Assembly (NCBI GenBank): GCA_014378495.1
Contig: JACMNP010000188.1
Location: forward strand, 1 to 38,130
Length of the DNA stretch: 38,130 nt
Direction of reading: 5' to 3'
Source of the DNA: Methylotenera sp.
GTDB lineage: Bacteria; Pseudomonadota; Gammaproteobacteria; Burkholderiales; Methylophilaceae
Positions 2,228-11,918 of the stretch are shown piece after piece; positions within the stretch are counted from its first letter, which is position 1; each line of letters starts with the position of its first letter. The translations under genes and the position numbers were made by a program. A model generated the notes under the pieces. The model did not search any database and was not told the DNA's origin. It worked only from the letters and a program-made list of their open reading frames with translations.

Positions 2228-2503
2228 TTATTTTAAATATGAACGCAAAACGCTTACCACTTGCTCCAAGTCCTGTTGACGCTGCTCTGGAATTACGACT
2301 TCTGTGCCTAGATGCTCTCTGATGTGTTTTTCAAGTACTTCTGCCATTAGACCATTCACCGCCCCTCTTATAGAAGCAATCTGTTGAAGTATGGCAGCAC
2401 AATCAATATCGTCATTTAACGCTTTTTCCATGGCTTCGGCCTGCCCTTTAATGCGGCGGATTCGAGTTAATATCTGCTTTTTATCATGAACTAAATGCAC
2501 CAT
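2228..2503 (-). CDS. RcnR/DmeR-like metal-sensing repressor (CsoR/FrmR family)
   Basis: A 91-residue all-helical repressor of the CsoR/RcnR/FrmR family, full length. Family positions seen directly are H3, C35 (IDCAAILQQIA), H60 and H64 (EKHIREHLG). In RcnR the set His3-Cys35-His60-His64 binds Ni(II)/Co(II); CsoR Cu(I) sensors carry Cys at the last position, and FrmR formaldehyde sensors lack His64. The protein is therefore most likely a Ni/Co sensor of the DmeR/RcnR type, not a Cu sensor, despite the copper genes downstream. It is divergent from a CDF exporter, with 73 bp between the two starts, and should repress that gene and itself. The start ATG follows a purine-rich gcgggga. The exact metal is inferred. 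Confidence 0.85.
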   Translation of the reverse strand: MVHLVHDKKQILTRIRRIKGQAEAMEKALNDDIDCAAILQQIASIRGAVNGLMAEVLEKHIREHLGTEVVIPEQRQQDLEQVVSVLRSYLK

Positions 2504-2530
2504 ATTAAATCCCCGCTTATTTTATTGGAA

Positions 2531-2566
2531 CGTATACTGGAGTATACTATATTTATAATATACTCT
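2531..2566. promoter_or_regulatory. Operator-like overlapping palindromes between the repressor and the CDF exporter
   Basis: Two overlapping inverted repeats fill the divergent promoter region: GTATAC-TGGA-GTATAC (2532-2547) and GAGTATA-N12-TATACTC (2540-2565). A TATAAT at 2554-2559 could be the -10 box of the exporter gene, which would put transcription start only about 10 bases before its ATG. The TATAGTATAC core resembles the FrmR-type operator arrangement known from enteric bacteria. Binding by the 2228-2503 repressor is inference. Confidence 0.6.
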
Positions 2567-2576
2567 GATCCCAATT

Positions 2577-3512
2577 ATGACACAATCAATTACCCTGGAT
2601 AGCCTTAAACATTCGCATAAATTTGATGAAGGTAATCCCCTAGCTGAGAAAAACACATTGCGTGTCGCTATCCTTACTGCCGTCATGATGGTGGTTGAGA
2701 TTGCCGGCGGCTGGTATTACAACTCAATGGCTTTGCTCGCCGATGGCTGGCATATGAGTTCTCATACGGTCGCACTAGGCTTATCTGTGTTGGCTTATTT
2801 TTGTGCTAGAAAATATGCACACGATCCACGCTTTTCTTTTGGTACTTGGAAAATAGAAGTATTAGGCGGCTATACCAGTGCTATTTTTTTAGTGATGGTG
2901 GCAGGGTTAATGATTTTTCAATCTATTGAAAGGTTAATAGCGCCTAGTCCCATTCACTATAATCAAGCGATTGGTATTGCAATCGTTGGTCTCCTAGTCA
3001 ATTTAGCTTCGGCATGGTTACTCAAAGATGGCCATCATCATGACCATGAACACAGCCACGATCATGGACACGAGCACCACGGTCATCATGACTTAAATTT
3101 ACGTTCTGCTTATATCCATGTGATTGCAGATGCAGCCACATCTGTATTAGCTATCATTGCATTATTTGGCGGCAAACTATGGGGCGCAAATTGGTTAGAT
3201 CCAGTGATGGGTTTAGTAGGCGCTGTCATGGTTTCTATATGGGCCTATGGTTTGCTACGCGATACTGGTCGCGTTTTATTGGATGCAGAGATGACGGCTC
3301 CTGTCGTGGAAGAGATTCGTGAAGTGATCGCGGAGTCACCGATAAAAGCTAACATTAGTGACTTGCATGTCTGGCGAGTGGGGCAAGGGAAATATGCTTG
3401 TATTCTGAGTCTCGTTACAGACAATAATGCATCGCCAGAGTATTTCAAAAATCAGTTACGTATTCACGAAGAGTTGGTTCATATCTCTGTTGAGATTAAC
3501 CAAATGGCTTGA
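2577..3512 (+). CDS. dmeF: CDF-family Co/Ni(/Zn) efflux transporter, DmeF-like
   Basis: A 311-residue cation diffusion facilitator that exchanges divalent metal for protons across the inner membrane. Six transmembrane segments are visible. The metal-site pair in TM2 and TM5 appears as ALLADGWHMSSH and YIHVIADAATSV, so both His/Asp motifs are present. A His-rich cytoplasmic loop (HHHDHEHSHDHGHEHHGHHD, about residues 152-171) lies between TM4 and TM5, and the C-terminal ferredoxin-like domain contains SDLHVWRVGQGKYACI. The N-terminal HSHKF motif and the paired RcnR-like regulator point to DmeF (Co/Ni) rather than a Zn-specific CzcD. The ATG has no strong Shine-Dalgarno sequence. Substrate is inferred. 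Confidence 0.82.
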   Translation: MTQSITLDSLKHSHKFDEGNPLAEKNTLRVAILTAVMMVVEIAGGWYYNSMALLADGWHMSSHTVALGLSVLAYFCARKYAHDPRFSFGTWKIEVLGGYTSAIFLVMVAGLMIFQSIERLIAPSPIHYNQAIGIAIVGLLVNLASAWLLKDGHHHDHEHSHDHGHEHHGHHDLNLRSAYIHVIADAATSVLAIIALFGGKLWGANWLDPVMGLVGAVMVSIWAYGLLRDTGRVLLDAEMTAPVVEEIREVIAESPIKANISDLHVWRVGQGKYACILSLVTDNNASPEYFKNQLRIHEELVHISVEINQMA

Positions 3513-3702: not shown

Positions 3703-4053
3703 ATGAAAATCATGCCTATTCATTTTTTTAAAGTCTGTATAGCCTCGGTACTCCTTACTACCTTTCTTGGCATAGCCAACGCTGATGAGCACAGAGATAT
3801 GAAAGGTTCAGACAGTATTATGCATTCCATGAAGGATGGGATGAAGAAAATGGAAGCTATGAAAATGACAGGCGATGTGGATAAAGACTTCGCTATGATG
3901 ATGAAAATGCATCATCAGCAAGCACTGGACATGGCGCAGATAGAGATTGCCCAAGGCAAATCGCCCGAAATGAAAGAAATGGCAAAGAAAATCGTTTCAG
4001 CGCAAAAAAAGGAAATCGCCGAGTTCGAAGCTTGGTTATCAAAACAAAGGTAA
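3703..4053 (+). CDS. DUF305 periplasmic protein (CopM-like)
   Basis: A 116-residue exported protein with a signal peptide (about residues 1-27, ending GIANADEH) followed by a Met/His/Lys-rich helical DUF305 domain. The family signature MMKMHHQQALDMAQIEI is clear, as is the C-terminal AKKIVSAQKKEIAEFEAWL helix. DUF305 (ferritin-like four-helix) proteins such as CopM bind Cu(I) in the periplasm through Met and His residues, and the Met-rich run MKDGMKKMEAMKM fits this. The start is supported by gaggga six bases upstream of the ATG. It heads a group of same-strand genes for copper handling, so a periplasmic copper-buffering role is likely. Confidence 0.82.
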   Translation: MKIMPIHFFKVCIASVLLTTFLGIANADEHRDMKGSDSIMHSMKDGMKKMEAMKMTGDVDKDFAMMMKMHHQQALDMAQIEIAQGKSPEMKEMAKKIVSAQKKEIAEFEAWLSKQR

Positions 4054-4096
4054 TATTGATTTAATCCATTAGCTTGAAATGGCAGAAAGTTAAATC

Positions 4097-4555
4097 ATGA
4101 AAGAAATGATGCATAAGCAACCTTATCTCAAGCTTTTATACATGACCCTGTTGTCCTTTGCTTCCATGTATATCTTCATGTATGCCATGGTCAACCAGAT
4201 CAGCAATGTGATTCCCAACATTAACCAGTTTTATATGGCAGGCTTAATGACCATGCCCATGGTATTGATTGAACTGTTGGTCATGAATGCTATGTATATG
4301 GATAAAAACATCAACAAACTTATCATCATCCTGTCTGCTATTGCATTGGTAGCATTTTTCTTATTGATTCGATTTCAAGGTGGGGTATCAGATAAGCAAT
4401 TCTTGAAATCAATGATCCCACATCACGCTTCTGCAATTCTAATGTGTAAGGAAACTGGGATAAAAGACCCTGAGATTAAAGCATTGTGCAGCAACATTGT
4501 TTCCGGCCAACAAAAGGAAATAGACCAGATGAAAGCTTTATTGGATAAAAAATAA
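4097..4555 (+). CDS. Membrane-anchored DUF305 protein
   Basis: A 152-residue protein with about three transmembrane segments in the first 95 residues (LYMTLLSFASMYIFMYAMV, MAGLMTMPMVLIELLVM, IIILSAIALVAFFLLI) and a C-terminal DUF305-type domain (KSMIPHHASAILMCKET ... IVSGQQKEIDQMKALL). The HHASAI and QQKEI motifs match those of the preceding gene, so the two look like soluble and membrane-tethered versions of the same metal-binding fold. It has Met-rich membrane helices and an added MCKET cysteine. It lies 43 bp after the first DUF305 gene, probably co-transcribed. Likely role: metal binding at the outer face of the inner membrane (inferred). Confidence 0.78.
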   Translation: MKEMMHKQPYLKLLYMTLLSFASMYIFMYAMVNQISNVIPNINQFYMAGLMTMPMVLIELLVMNAMYMDKNINKLIIILSAIALVAFFLLIRFQGGVSDKQFLKSMIPHHASAILMCKETGIKDPEIKALCSNIVSGQQKEIDQMKALLDKK

Positions 4556-4595: not shown

Positions 4596-4973
4596 ATGCA
4601 ATTCAAACAGCTACGATCATTTCGTATATTTATCTTCCTGCTAGTAACAGTATTCTTTACAGATACTGTTTACGCTAGCGGCATGATGGTGGCTGACCAA
4701 CTGTGTAACAATCACACAGCTGTTGCTGAAAGTCATGCTCATGAAGGTCATGACATGAATCAACATGACAACCACAAGCACGATACAGGGCAGAAACAAT
4801 CTGCTAATGACCACTGCTCTAAATGCGGTCATTGCATGGCTTGCTTTACCATTTTACCCCCTAGTCAATTACACAATATGCAATCCCAGGTTCAAGCAAT
4901 CGAAGTCAGCTTGTTTGAACCAAGTTATCACTCGCACATCAGTGCACAGCCTCAAAGACCTCCCATTTCATAA
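4596..4973 (+). CDS. Small exported His/Cys-rich protein (CopL/DUF2946-like)
   Basis: A 125-residue protein with a signal peptide (about 1-27, ending TVYASG), a His-rich middle (HAHEGHDMNQHDNHKHD, ~48-64) and a CSKCGHCMACF cluster with four Cys near residue 74-84. The arrangement recalls the small His/Cys proteins found in copper-resistance loci (CopL- or DUF2946-like), but I cannot assign it to a family with confidence. It sits 40 bp after the membrane DUF305 gene. A copper-binding or copper-sensing periplasmic role is inferred from composition and neighbours. Confidence 0.6.
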   Translation: MQFKQLRSFRIFIFLLVTVFFTDTVYASGMMVADQLCNNHTAVAESHAHEGHDMNQHDNHKHDTGQKQSANDHCSKCGHCMACFTILPPSQLHNMQSQVQAIEVSLFEPSYHSHISAQPQRPPIS

Positions 4974-5054: not shown

Positions 5055-6368
5055 ATGAAACTATTCAACTTATCGTTGTTTATTCTTTCTCTTGCTATAG
5101 GAATATCTGCGCCAGTCTGGGCAGCAGATGCCCCACAAGAGGCCAATCCCTACCAATCATCCTTTGATGATTACAAACCCTTATCTGATGACAATTTATC
5201 AGATTGGAAATCTATAAATGTGCCTTCAAATGGTGGCGGTCATGCCGGACACTCCATGGCAGGTATGCAACACAAAATGAGCCCGGAACAGATGGCTAAT
5301 ATGTCTTCCGACAACAAGAAAATGCCTGCAATGGAGGGTATGGACCATAGCAATATGGCAGGCATGGCAGATATGAACCAAGGCAGTATGAAAGGCATGG
5401 ATCATAGCCAAATGAAGCACGACCATGCAATGTCACCAATGGCAGGTATGGACCATTCTAAAATGGCTGGTATGGACATGGATCATGGCAGCATGAAATC
5501 CATGCCTGATAACAAGCAAGCAATACAGCCAATGAAAAAAGACGATATGCCAGAGATGAGTCACGACCAAATGGCGGGGCATGATCACGGTGGGTCTGAT
5601 ATGAAAGCAATGGATCACTCGATGATGAATGATTCAAAGGCAGATGAGATGCAACATAGTCATGAAAGTGCAGCGCAAGATGAATCTCAACCACATGAGC
5701 ACGCATCTGAGCAAGGAGCTGAACACGCAGGCATGGCAATGCCATCTATGGCAGCTACTACAACGCAACCCTCAGCATGGCAGGTAATTCCTAACTTTCA
5801 TCCGATTGTTGTGCATTTCCCAATTGCCTTAACTATCATCGCGTTTCTATTAAGTATCGCAGCTTATGCACGTCGTAGTCATCCGATCTCGGCACAGCTT
5901 GCAGCCGCTGGGCACTTTACCCTTTGGATCGCGGCTATCGGAGCTACTACAGCCGTATTATTTGGCTGGTTGGCTTATAACTCGGTCAATCATGATGATG
6001 CAGGGCATGCTGCCATGCTATTACACCGTTCTTGGGCTGTTCCAACGGCGATAGGATTAATCTTGCTGGCTAGCTGGGATGCCTGGAAGTATCGCGTCAA
6101 TGAATTGATATCTGTACCTATGTTATTTGTACTTTTTTTGCTTTCTCAATCGATCGCAGTGACTGGCTGGCTAGGCGGTGAAGTAGTTTATCGTCATGGT
6201 ATTGGCGTGTTATCGCTGCCAGCCAGTGAAGGTGCTGGACATAGTCACCATCATGAGCATGGCACTACTGAAACCACAGCTCATTCACATGAAGAGAATG
6301 CAAAAGAACCGGAAGCCGCTTCTGGGCATCATCACGACGATGAAGAAGGAGAATCCCATGAACACTAA
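5055..6368 (+). CDS. Met/His-rich periplasmic domain fused to a DUF2231 membrane domain
   Basis: A 437-residue protein in four parts: a signal peptide (1-23); a short conserved-looking segment NPYQSSFDDYKPL...DWKSI (31-54); a low-complexity Met/His/Asp-rich region (about 62-230) with repeats of the type GMDHS(N/Q/K)M at ~95, ~114 and ~131 and AMDHSMM at ~186; and a DUF2231 membrane domain (about 245-388, HPIVVHFPIALTI and GWLGGEVVYRHGIGV). A His-rich tail (~396-437) ends it. Met/His repeats of this kind bind Cu(I)/Cu(II) or Ag in periplasmic copper proteins such as CopB/PcoB and SilE. DUF2231 has no established biochemical role. The gene overlaps the next start by 11 bases, so the two are translationally coupled. 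Expected to store or pass on periplasmic copper (inferred). Confidence 0.75.
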   Translation: MKLFNLSLFILSLAIGISAPVWAADAPQEANPYQSSFDDYKPLSDDNLSDWKSINVPSNGGGHAGHSMAGMQHKMSPEQMANMSSDNKKMPAMEGMDHSNMAGMADMNQGSMKGMDHSQMKHDHAMSPMAGMDHSKMAGMDMDHGSMKSMPDNKQAIQPMKKDDMPEMSHDQMAGHDHGGSDMKAMDHSMMNDSKADEMQHSHESAAQDESQPHEHASEQGAEHAGMAMPSMAATTTQPSAWQVIPNFHPIVVHFPIALTIIAFLLSIAAYARRSHPISAQLAAAGHFTLWIAAIGATTAVLFGWLAYNSVNHDDAGHAAMLLHRSWAVPTAIGLILLASWDAWKYRVNELISVPMLFVLFLLSQSIAVTGWLGGEVVYRHGIGVLSLPASEGAGHSHHHEHGTTETTAHSHEENAKEPEAASGHHHDDEEGESHEH

Positions 6369-7743
6369 TATTCCCTATGCAATGAAACATCGCACTTTAA
6401 TTGCGTTAATGGGCAGCGCTTTTGTGCTTGGTGGCTGCGCTACTTTCTCAAAAGATGGTGGCTTTGGCAGCGTGCAGGAAATAACACAGCAGCATATCAA
6501 GCAAGAAGTTGTTTGGCCAAAAACGGCAGATGAACAAGCAAAAGTTGCTGATCGCGTAAATGAGTTGCTGCAGCAACGCATGGATGTGAATAGTGCCGTT
6601 CAGATCGCATTGCTTAATAACAAAGGCTTGCAGGCCTCCTTTTATGAGCTCGGTATATCTGAAGCTGATGTAGTACAAGCAGGTCGTTTTCCAAACCCAC
6701 GCTTTTCCATGCTGTATACCAAGAATGGCGGCGAATACAACATCGAGCAAACGCTGACCTTCAATATCTTTTCGCTTTTAACGATACCGAAGATGAAAGA
6801 AATTGAACGTCAACGCTTTGAACAGACCAAGCAGGCTACTGCACTCGAGGTTCTACGATTAGCGAATCAAACTCGGTTAGCTTATTTCAATGCTGTAGCG
6901 GCTACCGAGCAAGTGCGTTACAGCGAGCAAGTGAAAGACTCTGCGGAAGCCAGTGCGGAATTAGCCAGACGGATGGTGAAGGCAGGCAATTTCAATAAGC
7001 TCGAACAAGCCCGTGAACAAAGTTTTTATGCCGAAGCTGCTCTTGATTACGCTAATGCTAAAAATACACAGGTAAGCGCGTATGAAGCTTTATCCCGCTT
7101 GTTGGGCGTGTCAGCAGATGATCTTACTTTGCAAGAGCGCCTACCAGATTTACCCAAATCCATCACTGATCTTCAGCCGTTTGAAAAAACCGCTTTTGAA
7201 CAAAGACTGGATTTGAAGGCTATGAAAACTGAAACCCAAGTTCTGGCTAAACAGCTAGGTCTCACCAAAACTACGCGCTTCATCAATGTGCTTGAGATTG
7301 GACCAGCACGAGTGCTTGAAGGTCGTAGAAGCTCTGGATATAAGAATGGTGTAGATATCTCATTAGAACTGCCTTTATTTGATTGGGGTAGCGCTCGCGT
7401 CGCACGTGCAGAAGCAATCTATATGCAATCAGTGAACCGTGCAGCGCAGATGGCCGTCAATGCCCAATCCGAGGTCAGGGCAGCCTATAGCAGTTACCGA
7501 GCAAACTATGACATTGCCAAGCATTACCGGGATGAACTCGTGCCTTTGCATAAGAAGATCCTCAATGAAAACCAACTGCGCTATAACGGCATGCTGGCCA
7601 GTCCATTTGAGTTATTAGCTGACGCACGTGCGCAAGTTACCAGCGTTAAAAGCTATATCGAATCACTAAAACAATTCTGGCTCTCGGAGAGTGCGTTACA
7701 CATGACGCTGACTGGCAGCGCAAATATGATGGGAGGCAATTAA
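6358..7743 (+). CDS. TolC/CusC-family outer-membrane efflux lipoprotein
   Basis: A 461-residue outer-membrane factor. I move the start from the track's 6196 to the ATG at 6358, which follows a perfect AAGGAG six bases upstream and gives a lipoprotein signal peptide ending VLGGCATF (lipobox LGGC). Two OEP repeats are visible: about residues 55-240 (NNKGLQASFYELGISEADV) and 265-455 (RLDLKAMKTETQVLAKQLG ... ISLELPLFDWGSARVA). The LPLFDWG motif before the second coiled-coil is typical of CusC/TolC proteins. It overlaps the upstream DUF2231 gene and is one base from the oxidase gene. No RND pump or membrane-fusion protein gene lies beside it, so its inner-membrane partner is unknown. Export of copper or a copper-bound molecule is inferred. 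Confidence 0.85.
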   Translation: MNTNIPYAMKHRTLIALMGSAFVLGGCATFSKDGGFGSVQEITQQHIKQEVVWPKTADEQAKVADRVNELLQQRMDVNSAVQIALLNNKGLQASFYELGISEADVVQAGRFPNPRFSMLYTKNGGEYNIEQTLTFNIFSLLTIPKMKEIERQRFEQTKQATALEVLRLANQTRLAYFNAVAATEQVRYSEQVKDSAEASAELARRMVKAGNFNKLEQAREQSFYAEAALDYANAKNTQVSAYEALSRLLGVSADDLTLQERLPDLPKSITDLQPFEKTAFEQRLDLKAMKTETQVLAKQLGLTKTTRFINVLEIGPARVLEGRRSSGYKNGVDISLELPLFDWGSARVARAEAIYMQSVNRAAQMAVNAQSEVRAAYSSYRANYDIAKHYRDELVPLHKKILNENQLRYNGMLASPFELLADARAQVTSVKSYIESLKQFWLSESALHMTLTGSANMMGGN

Positions 7744-7744
7744 C

Positions 7745-9151
7745 ATGGATTTTTCTAAATTTGGTAAAGATATTACCAGGCGCAATTTTATCAAACTGGC
7801 AGGGGCCGGCATTGCTGCATCCACTGTAAGCAAAGTCGCCATGGCTGCATTACCTGAAATCGTGTCGACTGAACAAGCTACTACTCAAGCACCTTTACAT
7901 CCTAATACAGGTCGGCCATACAACCCAGTTGTGACACTAAACGGCTGGAGCCTGCCGTGGCGCATGAATAATGGTGTGAAAGAATTTCACTTAGTCGCAG
8001 AGCCTGTATTGCGCGAAATTGCACCCGGCATGAAAGCGCATTTATGGGGTTATAACGGTCAAAGCCCAGGTCCGACCATTGAAGTAGTTGAAGGTGATCG
8101 TGTACGGATATTTGTCACCAACAGATTGCCCGAACAGACCAGTATCCACTGGCATGGACAACCAGTACCTAATGGTATGGATGGAGTGAGTGGGTTAACA
8201 CAGCCAGCAATACAACCCGGTAAAACTTTTATGTATGAATTTGTAGCCAAGCGTGCTGGCACCTTTATGTATCACCCACATGCGGACGAAATGACGCAAA
8301 TGGCAATGGGCATGATGGGGACTTGGATCACGCATCCCAAGAATACCAAATTCATGCCGGTTGACCGTGACTTTGTATTTTTGCTTAATTCTTATGATAT
8401 CGATCCTGGTAGTTACACACCTAAAATCAATACCATGCTGGATTTCAATCTATGGACATTCAATAGCCGTGCTTTCCCTGGCATTGATCCGATGGTAGTG
8501 CGCAAGAATGATCGTGTACGTATTCGGTTTGGTAACCTGACCATGACCAACCATCCTATTCATTTGCATGGTCATGAGTTTCAAGTAACCGGTACTGACG
8601 GTGGTTGGGTGCCGCCAACTGCACGTTGGCCAGAAGTGACTACAGATGTTGCTGTAGGGCAGATGCGTGCGATTGAGTTCATTGCTGATAATCCTGGTGA
8701 CTGGGCGTTCCATTGTCATAAAAGCCATCACACCATGAATCCTATGGGGCATCAGGTGCCAACATTACTTGGTGTAAAACAAAGTGATCTTGTAGGAAAA
8801 ATCAGTAACCTAGTACCCGATTACATGGCAATGGGTGAAACTGGCATGGCAGAAATGACAGAAATGAAAGCCATGATGGATATGCCACTCCCTGAAAATA
8901 CCTTACCGATGATGTCAGGCACAGGTCAGTATGGGGCTATCGATATGGGTGGGATGTTTACAACGGTAAAAGTACGTGAGGGTTTAGCGCGTAACGACTA
9001 CAAAGATCCAGGACCTTACAATCACCCTCAAGGTACGGTTGCACGTGAGGTGGTGAATGACCTACCGCCGGTTGAAAGACCAGCCATGAATGATTCAGAG
9101 GGTGGCATGGAAATGTCTGTACGCAAACCTATGGGACATATGGAGCATTGA
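7745..9151 (+). CDS. Tat-exported multicopper oxidase (cuproxidase type)
   Basis: A 468-residue oxidase, predicted to oxidise Cu(I) to less toxic Cu(II) in the periplasm. The N-terminus carries a twin-arginine signal (ITRRNFIKLAGAG, cleavage near AMAA, ~35). Copper ligand motifs are all present: HWHG (135-138), HPH (177-179), HPIHLHGH (270-277) and HCHKSHHTMNPM (323-334), which supplies the type 1 Cys, His and Met ligands. A Met-rich region follows (~355-405, MAMGETGMAEMTEMKAMMDM), as in Cu-tolerance oxidases such as CueO, although here it follows the last ligand set. It is shorter than classical CopA/PcoA (~600 residues) because only two cupredoxin domains plus linkers are evident. The start is backed by gggagg. 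Co-transcribed with the outer-membrane factor. Confidence 0.88.
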   Translation: MDFSKFGKDITRRNFIKLAGAGIAASTVSKVAMAALPEIVSTEQATTQAPLHPNTGRPYNPVVTLNGWSLPWRMNNGVKEFHLVAEPVLREIAPGMKAHLWGYNGQSPGPTIEVVEGDRVRIFVTNRLPEQTSIHWHGQPVPNGMDGVSGLTQPAIQPGKTFMYEFVAKRAGTFMYHPHADEMTQMAMGMMGTWITHPKNTKFMPVDRDFVFLLNSYDIDPGSYTPKINTMLDFNLWTFNSRAFPGIDPMVVRKNDRVRIRFGNLTMTNHPIHLHGHEFQVTGTDGGWVPPTARWPEVTTDVAVGQMRAIEFIADNPGDWAFHCHKSHHTMNPMGHQVPTLLGVKQSDLVGKISNLVPDYMAMGETGMAEMTEMKAMMDMPLPENTLPMMSGTGQYGAIDMGGMFTTVKVREGLARNDYKDPGPYNHPQGTVAREVVNDLPPVERPAMNDSEGGMEMSVRKPMGHMEH

Positions 9152-9193: not shown

Positions 9194-9307
9194 GTTAATC
9201 CATTGCATGTTTTACGTCTAAGTGCGTTGTCGAACAGACTGTGAGCGTCAACTGAAAGATGATAAATTTCCAAGCTTTTGCTTGAATATAATGAAAAGGA
9301 TTTCACC

Positions 9308-9559
9308 ATGCAAACAGAACAGTTAAAAGTAACAGGAATGACCTGCGGAGGCTGTACAAGTAGGGTTACAAGCGCATTAAAGGCCGTTAATGGAGTAAGT
9401 GATGTCGCTGTTTCTTTATCCGACAGTCAAGCAACAGTGCAATATGATGAAAAGTTAACCTCACCCGAACAATTAAAATCAGTGGTATTAGAAGCTGGTT
9501 ATGGAGTAGGTACATCTGATAACACACAGCAACCTGAAGGTAAAGGCTGTTGCGGATAA
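9308..9559 (+). CDS. copZ: CopZ-like copper chaperone (HMA domain)
   Basis: An 83-residue heavy-metal-associated domain protein that binds Cu(I) in the cytoplasm and hands it to the CopA ATPase. The motif GMTCGGC (residues 10-16) and the ferredoxin-like pattern (VAVSLSDSQATVQYD, LKSVVLEAGYGV) cover about residues 5-68. A C-terminal tail ending GKGCCG adds two Cys that could give an extra metal site. The track's start (9278) is replaced by the ATG at 9308, which follows aaaagga at proper spacing. It is 28 bp upstream of the ATPase gene. Confidence 0.88.
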   Translation: MQTEQLKVTGMTCGGCTSRVTSALKAVNGVSDVAVSLSDSQATVQYDEKLTSPEQLKSVVLEAGYGVGTSDNTQQPEGKGCCG

Positions 9560-9587: not shown

Positions 9588-11918
9588 ATGACTGTGAGTA
9601 GCCTAGTACTGCAAGAGCTGAAAGATCCTGTCTGCGGCATGAAGGTGACCGAACAATCTCCTAACGTATTCAATTACAAAGGTAAGCCAGTTTACTTTTG
9701 TAGTGCTGGTTGCAAAGCTAAGTTTGTGGCTGATCCAGCAAAATATTTAGTAGCAGATTTAAGCGCCAGCAACACAGTTTTAGAATCAAAACCCACTCAA
9801 TCCGAACTTACTTCAACAGGTACAATTTATACCTGCCCGATGCACCCAGAAGTTCGCCTTGATCATGCTGGGGTATGTCCTAAATGTGGCATGACACTAG
9901 AGCCAGAAATGCCTACTCTGGATAATGGTGAAAGCCCAGAGCTAATGGATTTTAAGCGTCGTTTTATTTGGACGCTACCACTGACTATTATTGTTACATT
10001 CTTAGCTATGCTAGGTCACCGTTTACAGTGGTTTGAAATGGCTACGCAAAGCTGGATAGAGCTCCTACTGTCATTACCTATTGTATTATGGGCAGGCTGG
10101 CCATTCTTTGAGCGTGGTTTTCAATCTGTAGTGAATCGCAGCCCTAATATGTGGACGTTGATTGGATTAGGCACTTCTGCAGCATTTATTTACAGCGTTG
10201 TCGCCACAATCATACCAAATGTTTTTCCTGCATCGTTTATGGCGATGGGTCGTGTCTCCGTTTACTTTGAAGCAGCCGCTGTAATTATTTCCTTAACGCT
10301 GCTTGGCCAAATTTTAGAACTCAAAGCACGATCACAAACTTCTGCTGCGATTAAATCATTACTTGGCTTATCCCCTAAAACAGCTCGTAGAATTAATGCA
10401 GATGGTATTGAAGAGGATATTCCTCTCACGCACGTCCATGTAGGCGACCTGCTACGTATACGACCAGGAGAAAAAATCCCTGTCGATGGTGTGGTGACAG
10501 AAGGTAGTAGCGCAGTAGATGAATCCATGCTTACTGGTGAACCGATGCCAGTCACTAAAAGCATTGGTGATAAGCTCATTGGCGCAACACTTAATACAAA
10601 CGGCGCATTGATCATGCGCTCAGAAAAAGTAGGTTCGCAAACGGTGTTGGCCAGTATCGTACAGATGGTCATTCAAGCTCAACGCTCTAAAGCACCTATG
10701 CAACGCATGGCGGACCAAGTGGCCGGCTACTTCGTTGTCACTGTCGTTAGCATTGCACTCATCACTTTCTTTGTTTGGGGCTTCTTAGGACCAGAGCCAA
10801 GCTGGGTCTATGGTCTGATTAATGCTGTGGCGGTGCTTATTATTGCCTGCCCATGTGCATTAGGGCTCGCAACACCTATGTCCATCATGGTCGCCACCGG
10901 TAAAGCCGCAACGCAGGGTGTGTTATTCCGAGACGCAGCAGCTATCGAAAACTTCCGTAAAGTAGATACATTAATCGTAGACAAGACTGGCACGCTAACA
11001 GAAGGAAAGCCGCGATTTAATCTAGCCATAGCATCGTCAGGTTACACGGAAGACGAAGTGTTACGTTTAGCAGCCAGTCTTGATCAAGGAAGTGAGCATC
11101 CATTAGCAGATGCTATTGTTAAGGCAGCACATGAACGAAGCCTAATACTTGATAAGGTAGATGGTTTTGAGTCCAGCACAGGCATAGGTGTACGTGGTAG
11201 TGTCGGTAGCAAACAATTAGCTTTAGGTAATACGGCTCTCATGACTCAGCTCAATGTGCAAATCGAATCATTAAAACTAACGGCAGAAGAATTACGTACC
11301 ACAGGGGCTAGCGTTATGTATCTAGCTGTCGATGGTAAGCCAGCAGGTTTGCTATCTGTCTCAGACCCAATTAAGGAAAGCACGACTGAAGCATTGACTA
11401 CTTTAAAATCATCTGGCATGCGTGTCATCATGGCGACAGGTGATGGTTTACTCACAGCGAAATCAGTTGCAGCCAAGCTGGGGATTGATGAATTTTATGG
11501 CGAGGTTAAACCTGCCGACAAATTAGCATTGGTAGATAAATTGCAGCGCGAAGGCCGGATTGTGGCAATGGCAGGCGATGGTATTAATGATGCACCTGCT
11601 CTTGCTAAGGCGAATGTAGGTGTGGCAATGGGTACTGGCACTGATGTGGCGATGAATAGTGCTCAGGTAACACTCGTTAAGGGCGACTTGCGCGGCATTG
11701 CACAAGCTCGCGAGATTTCTGTACAAACCATCGCAAATATGAAACAGAATTTAGGCTTTGCCTTCGTATATAACGCACTAGGAGTGCCACTGGCTGCGGG
11801 AGTTCTTTACCCATTCACTGGTTGGTTACTCTCACCTATGATTGCCGCCTTAGCAATGAGTTTAAGTTCAGTTTCTGTGATTACTAATGCATTACGTTTG
11901 AGAAACTCTCACACATAA
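9588..11918 (+). CDS. copA: Cu+-exporting P1B-1-type ATPase
   Basis: A 776-residue P-type ATPase pumping Cu+ (or Ag+) from cytoplasm to periplasm. The N-terminus has a YHS domain (KDPVCGMKV ... [11 protein letters not shown], ~12-52) and a heavy-metal-binding YTCPMHPEV...CPKCGM segment (~81-102) instead of HMA repeats. Core motifs are complete: TGE (316-318), [10 protein letters not shown] (421-430), DKTGTL with phospho-Asp D465, HP locus SEHPLA (502-507) and GDGINDAP (663-670). The P1B-1 signatures YN (728-729) and MSLSS (757-761) support Cu+ specificity. The chaperone role of the missing N-terminal HMA domain is supplied by the adjacent copZ gene. The start follows aggag; another upstream ATG (9583) runs straight into a stop. 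Confidence 0.95.

Follow-up and report, generated by a model that had tools for sequence, protein, structure and literature searches.

The window, a 38,130-nt stretch of contig JACMNP010000188.1, comes from a Methylophilaceae-like MAG (2.12 Mb, 79% complete) with a single DUF2231 protein. An ORF of 437 aa at positions 5055-6368, on the forward strand like the other genes of the cluster described below, was found to combine a signal peptide, a YQS module, a Met/His-rich region, a DUF2231 domain and a His-rich tail. An earlier reading of the sequence alone (the sequence-only reading) had already placed Met/His repeats, DUF2231 and a His-rich tail in one ORF, which we confirmed; beyond it, we recognized a conserved 40-residue module (residues 31-70) and a conserved set of Met, His and Asp residues in the DUF2231 part. 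Reading of the sequence predicted a Sec signal peptide at residues 1-24 (MKLFNLSLFILSLAIGISAPVWAA; 5055-5126), with a hydrophobic segment at residues 3-21, followed by the YQS module (NPYQSSFDDYKPLSDDNLSDWKSIN...GGHAGH; 5145-5264). The Met/His-rich region (residues 62-230; 5238-5744), a predicted periplasmic copper-binding tract, contained 19.5% Met and 10.7% His, with DHSxMxGM-type repeats (DHSNMAGM, DHSKMAGM and two near-copies). Its top 150-residue stretch reached 30.7% Met+His, versus 18% for the neighbouring multicopper oxidase, which came second among the window genes compared. In tblastn, this part was similar to proteins annotated as CopB on Cupriavidus plasmids. Low-complexity Met/His tracts are common among copper proteins and do not fix the role of the protein. 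The DUF2231 domain (residues 248-385; 5796-6209) comprises four predicted membrane helices, with both termini predicted to be periplasmic based on hydropathy, AlphaFold2 and loop charges, and precedes a C-terminal tail with 25% His (residues 390-437; 6222-6365).

A ribosome-binding site, AAGGAG (6346-6351), precedes the start codon of the next gene, which encodes a TolC-like outer-membrane factor (OMF) with an LGGC lipoprotein signal (6358-7743; PF02321, E 4.8e-32). Its ATG at 6358 lies 10 nt ahead of the end of the DUF2231-gene stop codon, so that the two genes overlap by 11 nt (6358-6368; whole junction, 6346-6368). A Tat-exported multicopper oxidase (7745-9151; PF07732/PF07731) starts 1 nt past the OMF stop. 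Further downstream are a CopZ-like cytoplasmic copper chaperone (9305-9559; PF00403, E 6.5e-17; NF033795 below cut-off) and a Cu-exporting P1B ATPase (9588-11918; TIGR01511 over cut-off). Upstream, we found a small His/Cys-rich CopL-like protein (4596-4973; NF033807, E 8e-7, below cut-off) and two DUF305, CopM-like genes (3703-4555; PF03713; NF049983 below cut-off).

Two other elements were observed beside the cluster. At 2228-3512, genes for a CsoR/FrmR-family regulator and a DmeF-type Co/Ni efflux protein (the latter with NF033827 over cut-off) are divergently oriented, a pair also found near the fused cluster in two other loci (L008 and L050). A transposase adjoins the copper cluster at 630-2060. 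In another locus (L004, 12928-13281), the start of a closely similar transposase comes right behind the Cu-ATPase gene, at the opposite cluster end, which suggests that the cluster may move with this element.

The DUF2231 domain was well recognized by PF09990 (E 6.7e-15; 55.8 bits versus a gathering score of 26.4). Across 53 non-redundant sequences of the subfamily, residues H249, P250, H254, H313, D314, H318, M321, H324, W341 and E376 were invariant, with no exception. In 14 other DUF2231 proteins, H249 and H324 were kept; H313, D314, H318 and M321 were not conserved. We define here a His-tailed copper-cluster subfamily by H313, D314, H318 and M321, a His-rich tail and a copper neighbourhood, and the window protein shows all of these. 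The subfamily-specific cluster, H313, D314, H318, M321 and H324 (5991-6026), lies in helices 2-3 at the end predicted to face the periplasm. The AlphaFold2 model, for which two plasmid-record rows were left out of the input, showed four long helices and a core that mostly exceeded a pLDDT of 90. The periplasmic side was assigned from loop charges and the signal peptide. In this model, H249, H254, H313, D314, H318, M321, H324 and E376 are all predicted near the periplasmic ends of the helices, and we infer that they lie close together in space. A fold search of the PDB with DUF2231 gave no significant resemblance, the best matches (E 0.17 at best) being generic helical bundles. As a candidate solved relative by sequence, the best match was a viral rhodopsin (E 0.048), which we did not accept as real.

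A single scan across 84,980 species genomes retrieved 14 full-length relatives of the fused protein; most were labelled Methylotenera or Methylophilus, and three (L004, L005 and L009) had only broad or other MAG labels. Additional fused relatives were present in a 150-genome sample of the family. The sequence-only reading had proposed that the gene is coupled to that of the OMF and had asked whether homologues with the same fusion always precede a TolC-like gene. In all 24 fused loci examined (one genome entered twice), the OMF reading frame came next, its ATG was at the identical offset with the same 11-nt overlap, and a multicopper oxidase was present. The DUF2231 parts of the fused proteins formed one Methylophilaceae clade (SH-aLRT 99); because all fused loci belong to this clade, the conservation of the operon is not independent evidence. 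No other Met/His-DUF2231 fusion of this type was seen among 274 genomes of the class, 300 of the order and 399 of the phylum, with reading frames checked for part of the weaker matches. Among the genomes sampled, a long periplasmic N-terminal part on DUF2231 was limited to Methylophilaceae.

Residues 31-70 ("YQSxFxDYK..DW..N") were kept in all fused proteins. A single-sequence query with this module gave zero matches against plasmids; with a ten-row profile, we matched 13 loci in further genomes of this order. In the 11 loci examined (L227-L237), from seven other families of the order, the module is part of a small protein whose gene immediately precedes that of an OMF 35-52% identical to the window OMF; in most of these loci, the two genes overlap by about 4 nt. 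Profile comparison of the window module with the small YQS protein gave a probability of 97.8% (E 1.2e-12). The window protein also shares the features of this family, namely a signal peptide, a YxSxFxxY...W..N module and an overlap directly ahead of the OMF gene. None of the Pfam or NCBIfam models exceeded its cut-off for the examples of the small YQS protein that were scanned; this putative small periplasmic protein (YxSxFxxY..W..N) is found, unannotated, ahead of the OMF across many Burkholderiales. In three of the 11 loci, the module was itself fused to CusF (L233, E 1.7e-24; L235, E 1.5e-11; L236, E 7.9e-14), and these YQS-CusF fusions occupy the identical place ahead of the OMF. One Methylophilaceae locus (L064) has separate, adjacent genes for the small protein, OMF, multicopper oxidase, DUF2231 and DUF411, in that order. 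Since its DUF2231 falls in the other Methylophilaceae clade of the tree, this locus is an example of the separate arrangement and not a direct ancestor. As the module is a separate small protein elsewhere and the parts are separate in L064, the window protein is best seen as two cluster components that have been fused.

Separate DUF2231 proteins are usually 175-250 aa long, start at the first helix and carry a His-rich tail. Their neighbours included CusC, CusB, CusA, multicopper oxidase, Cu-ATPase, MerR regulators, CusRS and DUF411. In the class sample, copper genes were found within five genes of 25 out of 30 His-tailed DUF2231 genes versus 4 out of 13 others (Fisher p 0.0014), and of 21 out of 30 versus 1 out of 13 when P-type ATPases were excluded (p 2e-4), these p-values being merely indicative because the loci are related. 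Overall, no recognized copper gene lay within five genes in 5 out of 46 His-tailed loci. The association between His-tailed DUF2231 and copper genes was also observed on plasmids of Legionella, Simkania and Criblamydia, so that this subfamily occurs in copper clusters of several phyla. On the Legionella fallonii plasmid, a multicopper oxidase-CopB fusion (L047, 7588-10953; PF05275, E 2e-22) lies directly after the DUF2231 gene. In another family of the order, DUF2231 was fused ahead of a CusB adaptor (L155/L216; PF16576, E 1.8e-74), in a gene followed by CusA and a 466-aa gene. A second genome of that family contains a 603-aa frame matching DUF2231 and the linker at 56%, so an assembly error is improbable; the DUF2231-CusB fusion is thus present in at least one genome and probably in two. 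Fusions of DUF2231, a His-rich linker and SnoaL_3/DUF4440 were also found in two other genomes (L211, 6506-7576; L212, 6500-7579); a stand-alone NTF2-family gene lies behind CopD in an OMF-oxidase operon of Massilia (L244).

The sequence-only reading had considered that its copper hypothesis would fail if the domains occurred separately or without copper genes in most relatives. The domains are indeed separate in most relatives, yet copper genes accompany them. Together, the fused loci and the separate DUF2231 genes in copper clusters provide good contextual support for the putative copper-binding and copper-defence role that it had claimed.

Cytochrome c genes were observed near DUF2231 in five loci (L013, L112, L124, L129 and L143). 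Such genes, together with the conserved His in the membrane helices and the iron reductase and cytochrome c3 family genes in a neighbourhood on a Legionella plasmid, would suit a heme- or quinone-linked redox module accepting electrons from Cu(I) in the periplasm, with or in place of the multicopper oxidase. For Cupriavidus, a comparable idea has been advanced about its Gig system (PMC10304878). We consider this function of DUF2231 unlikely: the invariant residues are predicted near the periplasmic helix ends, with no pair across the membrane, and the structural comparison gave no significant match to a known cytochrome.

The OMF-oxidase pair itself is widespread. In nine plasmid loci, the OMF was followed by the copper oxidase in every case, and on to CopC-CopD in six; no DUF2231 was listed beside the pair in the stretch shown of these loci, for which the gene table is incomplete. 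The same OMF family and a multicopper oxidase, with no annotated DUF2231, were found in Burkholderia, Massilia and Bradyrhizobium. In Bradyrhizobium, Tn5 mutants of tolC and of a multicopper oxidase (copA) were copper-sensitive (PMC5057107), although these genes may differ from the OMF-oxidase pair described here. No CopC or CopD was present near the 24 fused loci; elsewhere in the window genome, there was one weak CopD-family match, and no match to CopB (PF05275). Homology between DUF2231 and CopD was rejected, with an hhalign probability of 0.8% against four CopD sequences and no PF05425 match in the window protein.

A CusBA pair was located at the end of another contig of the window genome. 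Its CusA shares 94.5% identity with one whose gene lies just upstream of the fused cluster of a relative (L011), and CusBA adjoins the fused cluster in some relatives. The possibility that the cluster OMF is the missing CusC of this system was weakened, because one locus (L058) encodes, besides the cluster OMF, its own 421-aa OMF-like protein (recognized by eye) upstream of CusB. The sequence-only reading had also suggested that the window protein might be the missing inner-membrane partner of the OMF. The overlap of the genes, and an inner-membrane domain adjoining a TolC-like protein, would agree with such a pump or channel partner, but we find this role very unlikely, as the protein is predicted to have just four helices and lacks any energy-coupling or adaptor domain, the OMF-oxidase pair occurs elsewhere without DUF2231 and with a small soluble protein alone ahead of the OMF, and a CusBA system is available.

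The constant presence of the oxidase beside the fused gene, starting just behind the OMF, might instead indicate a metallochaperone that loads the cofactor into the co-translated oxidase rather than a detoxification sink. This also seems improbable, since many DUF2231 relatives lie beside CusCBA with no oxidase in view, and the OMF-oxidase pair exists without DUF2231.

We return to the reservoir suggested in the sequence-only reading, which we prefer in a membrane-anchored form: from sequence and context, the window protein is probably an inner-membrane-anchored periplasmic copper sink that donates to oxidase or efflux proteins. Copper binding, membrane topology and transfer direction are likewise deduced. 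The N-terminal part and the tail would be in the periplasm, with DUF2231 as the inner-membrane anchor. The Met/His tract and the tail may collect Cu(I)/Cu(II) that enters the periplasm or is expelled by the neighbouring P1B ATPase, and it may be held by the invariant His, Met and Asp residues clustered on the periplasmic side of DUF2231. The recipients of this copper would be the co-translated multicopper oxidase, which would oxidize Cu(I) to Cu(II), or the efflux proteins (the OMF and CusBA), or both. The protein would take the place of CopC-CopD in related operons. More tentatively, His-tailed DUF2231 may represent a new class of inner-membrane copper site that extends across phyla, operates alongside multicopper oxidases and CusCBA, and offers an alternative to CopC-CopD or CusF; in Methylophilaceae, its fusion with the small OMF partner would have produced a single membrane-anchored sink and donor.

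Two proteins of copper defence that are separate in other bacteria appear to have been merged in the methanol-eating Methylophilaceae. The fusions (with the YQS module and with CusB), the neighbourhoods and the subfamily residues link one branch of DUF2231 to copper handling, and the invariants provide residues to mutate in a domain with no assigned function. Moreover, an unannotated small protein is revealed as the companion of a widespread OMF-multicopper oxidase pair.

Among known systems, the nearest described idea is CusD of Cupriavidus metallidurans, proposed to hold Cu(I) near the inner membrane and to pass it to CusF and CusCBA (PMC10304878). By description, CusD and the window protein are both membrane-attached, Met/His-rich periplasmic proteins of copper operons; however, CusD is a Tat-exported lipoprotein, whereas the window protein has a Sec-type signal, DUF2231 and the YQS module. 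YQS-CusF fusions use the same N-terminal module, but the window protein has no CusF domain (PF11604). By analogy, our best reading is that it may function like CusD or CusF. The octapeptide repeat is carried by Pseudomonas CopA and CopB, and the DHSxMxGM-type repeats are common to CopB/PcoB, CopA and the window protein, which, unlike CopB/PcoB, does not match the outer-membrane domain PF05275. CopC-CopD likewise combine a periplasmic copper binder and an inner-membrane protein beside the OMF-oxidase pair, but their profiles are unrelated to DUF2231. The HlyD_D23 barrel-sandwich domain of CusB-type RND periplasmic adaptors is absent from the window protein and present in the L155 fusion. Finally, the window protein is a member of DUF2231 (PF09990), but of a His-tailed copper-cluster subfamily with extra invariants. 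The open literature searched, with most subscription journals outside its scope, contained almost nothing on DUF2231 and no description of the fusion, of a copper-linked DUF2231 subfamily or of a module common to CusF fusions. Each ingredient of the protein is of a known kind; new against this literature are the fusion, the copper-linked DUF2231 subfamily with its residues and the small module shared with CusF fusions.
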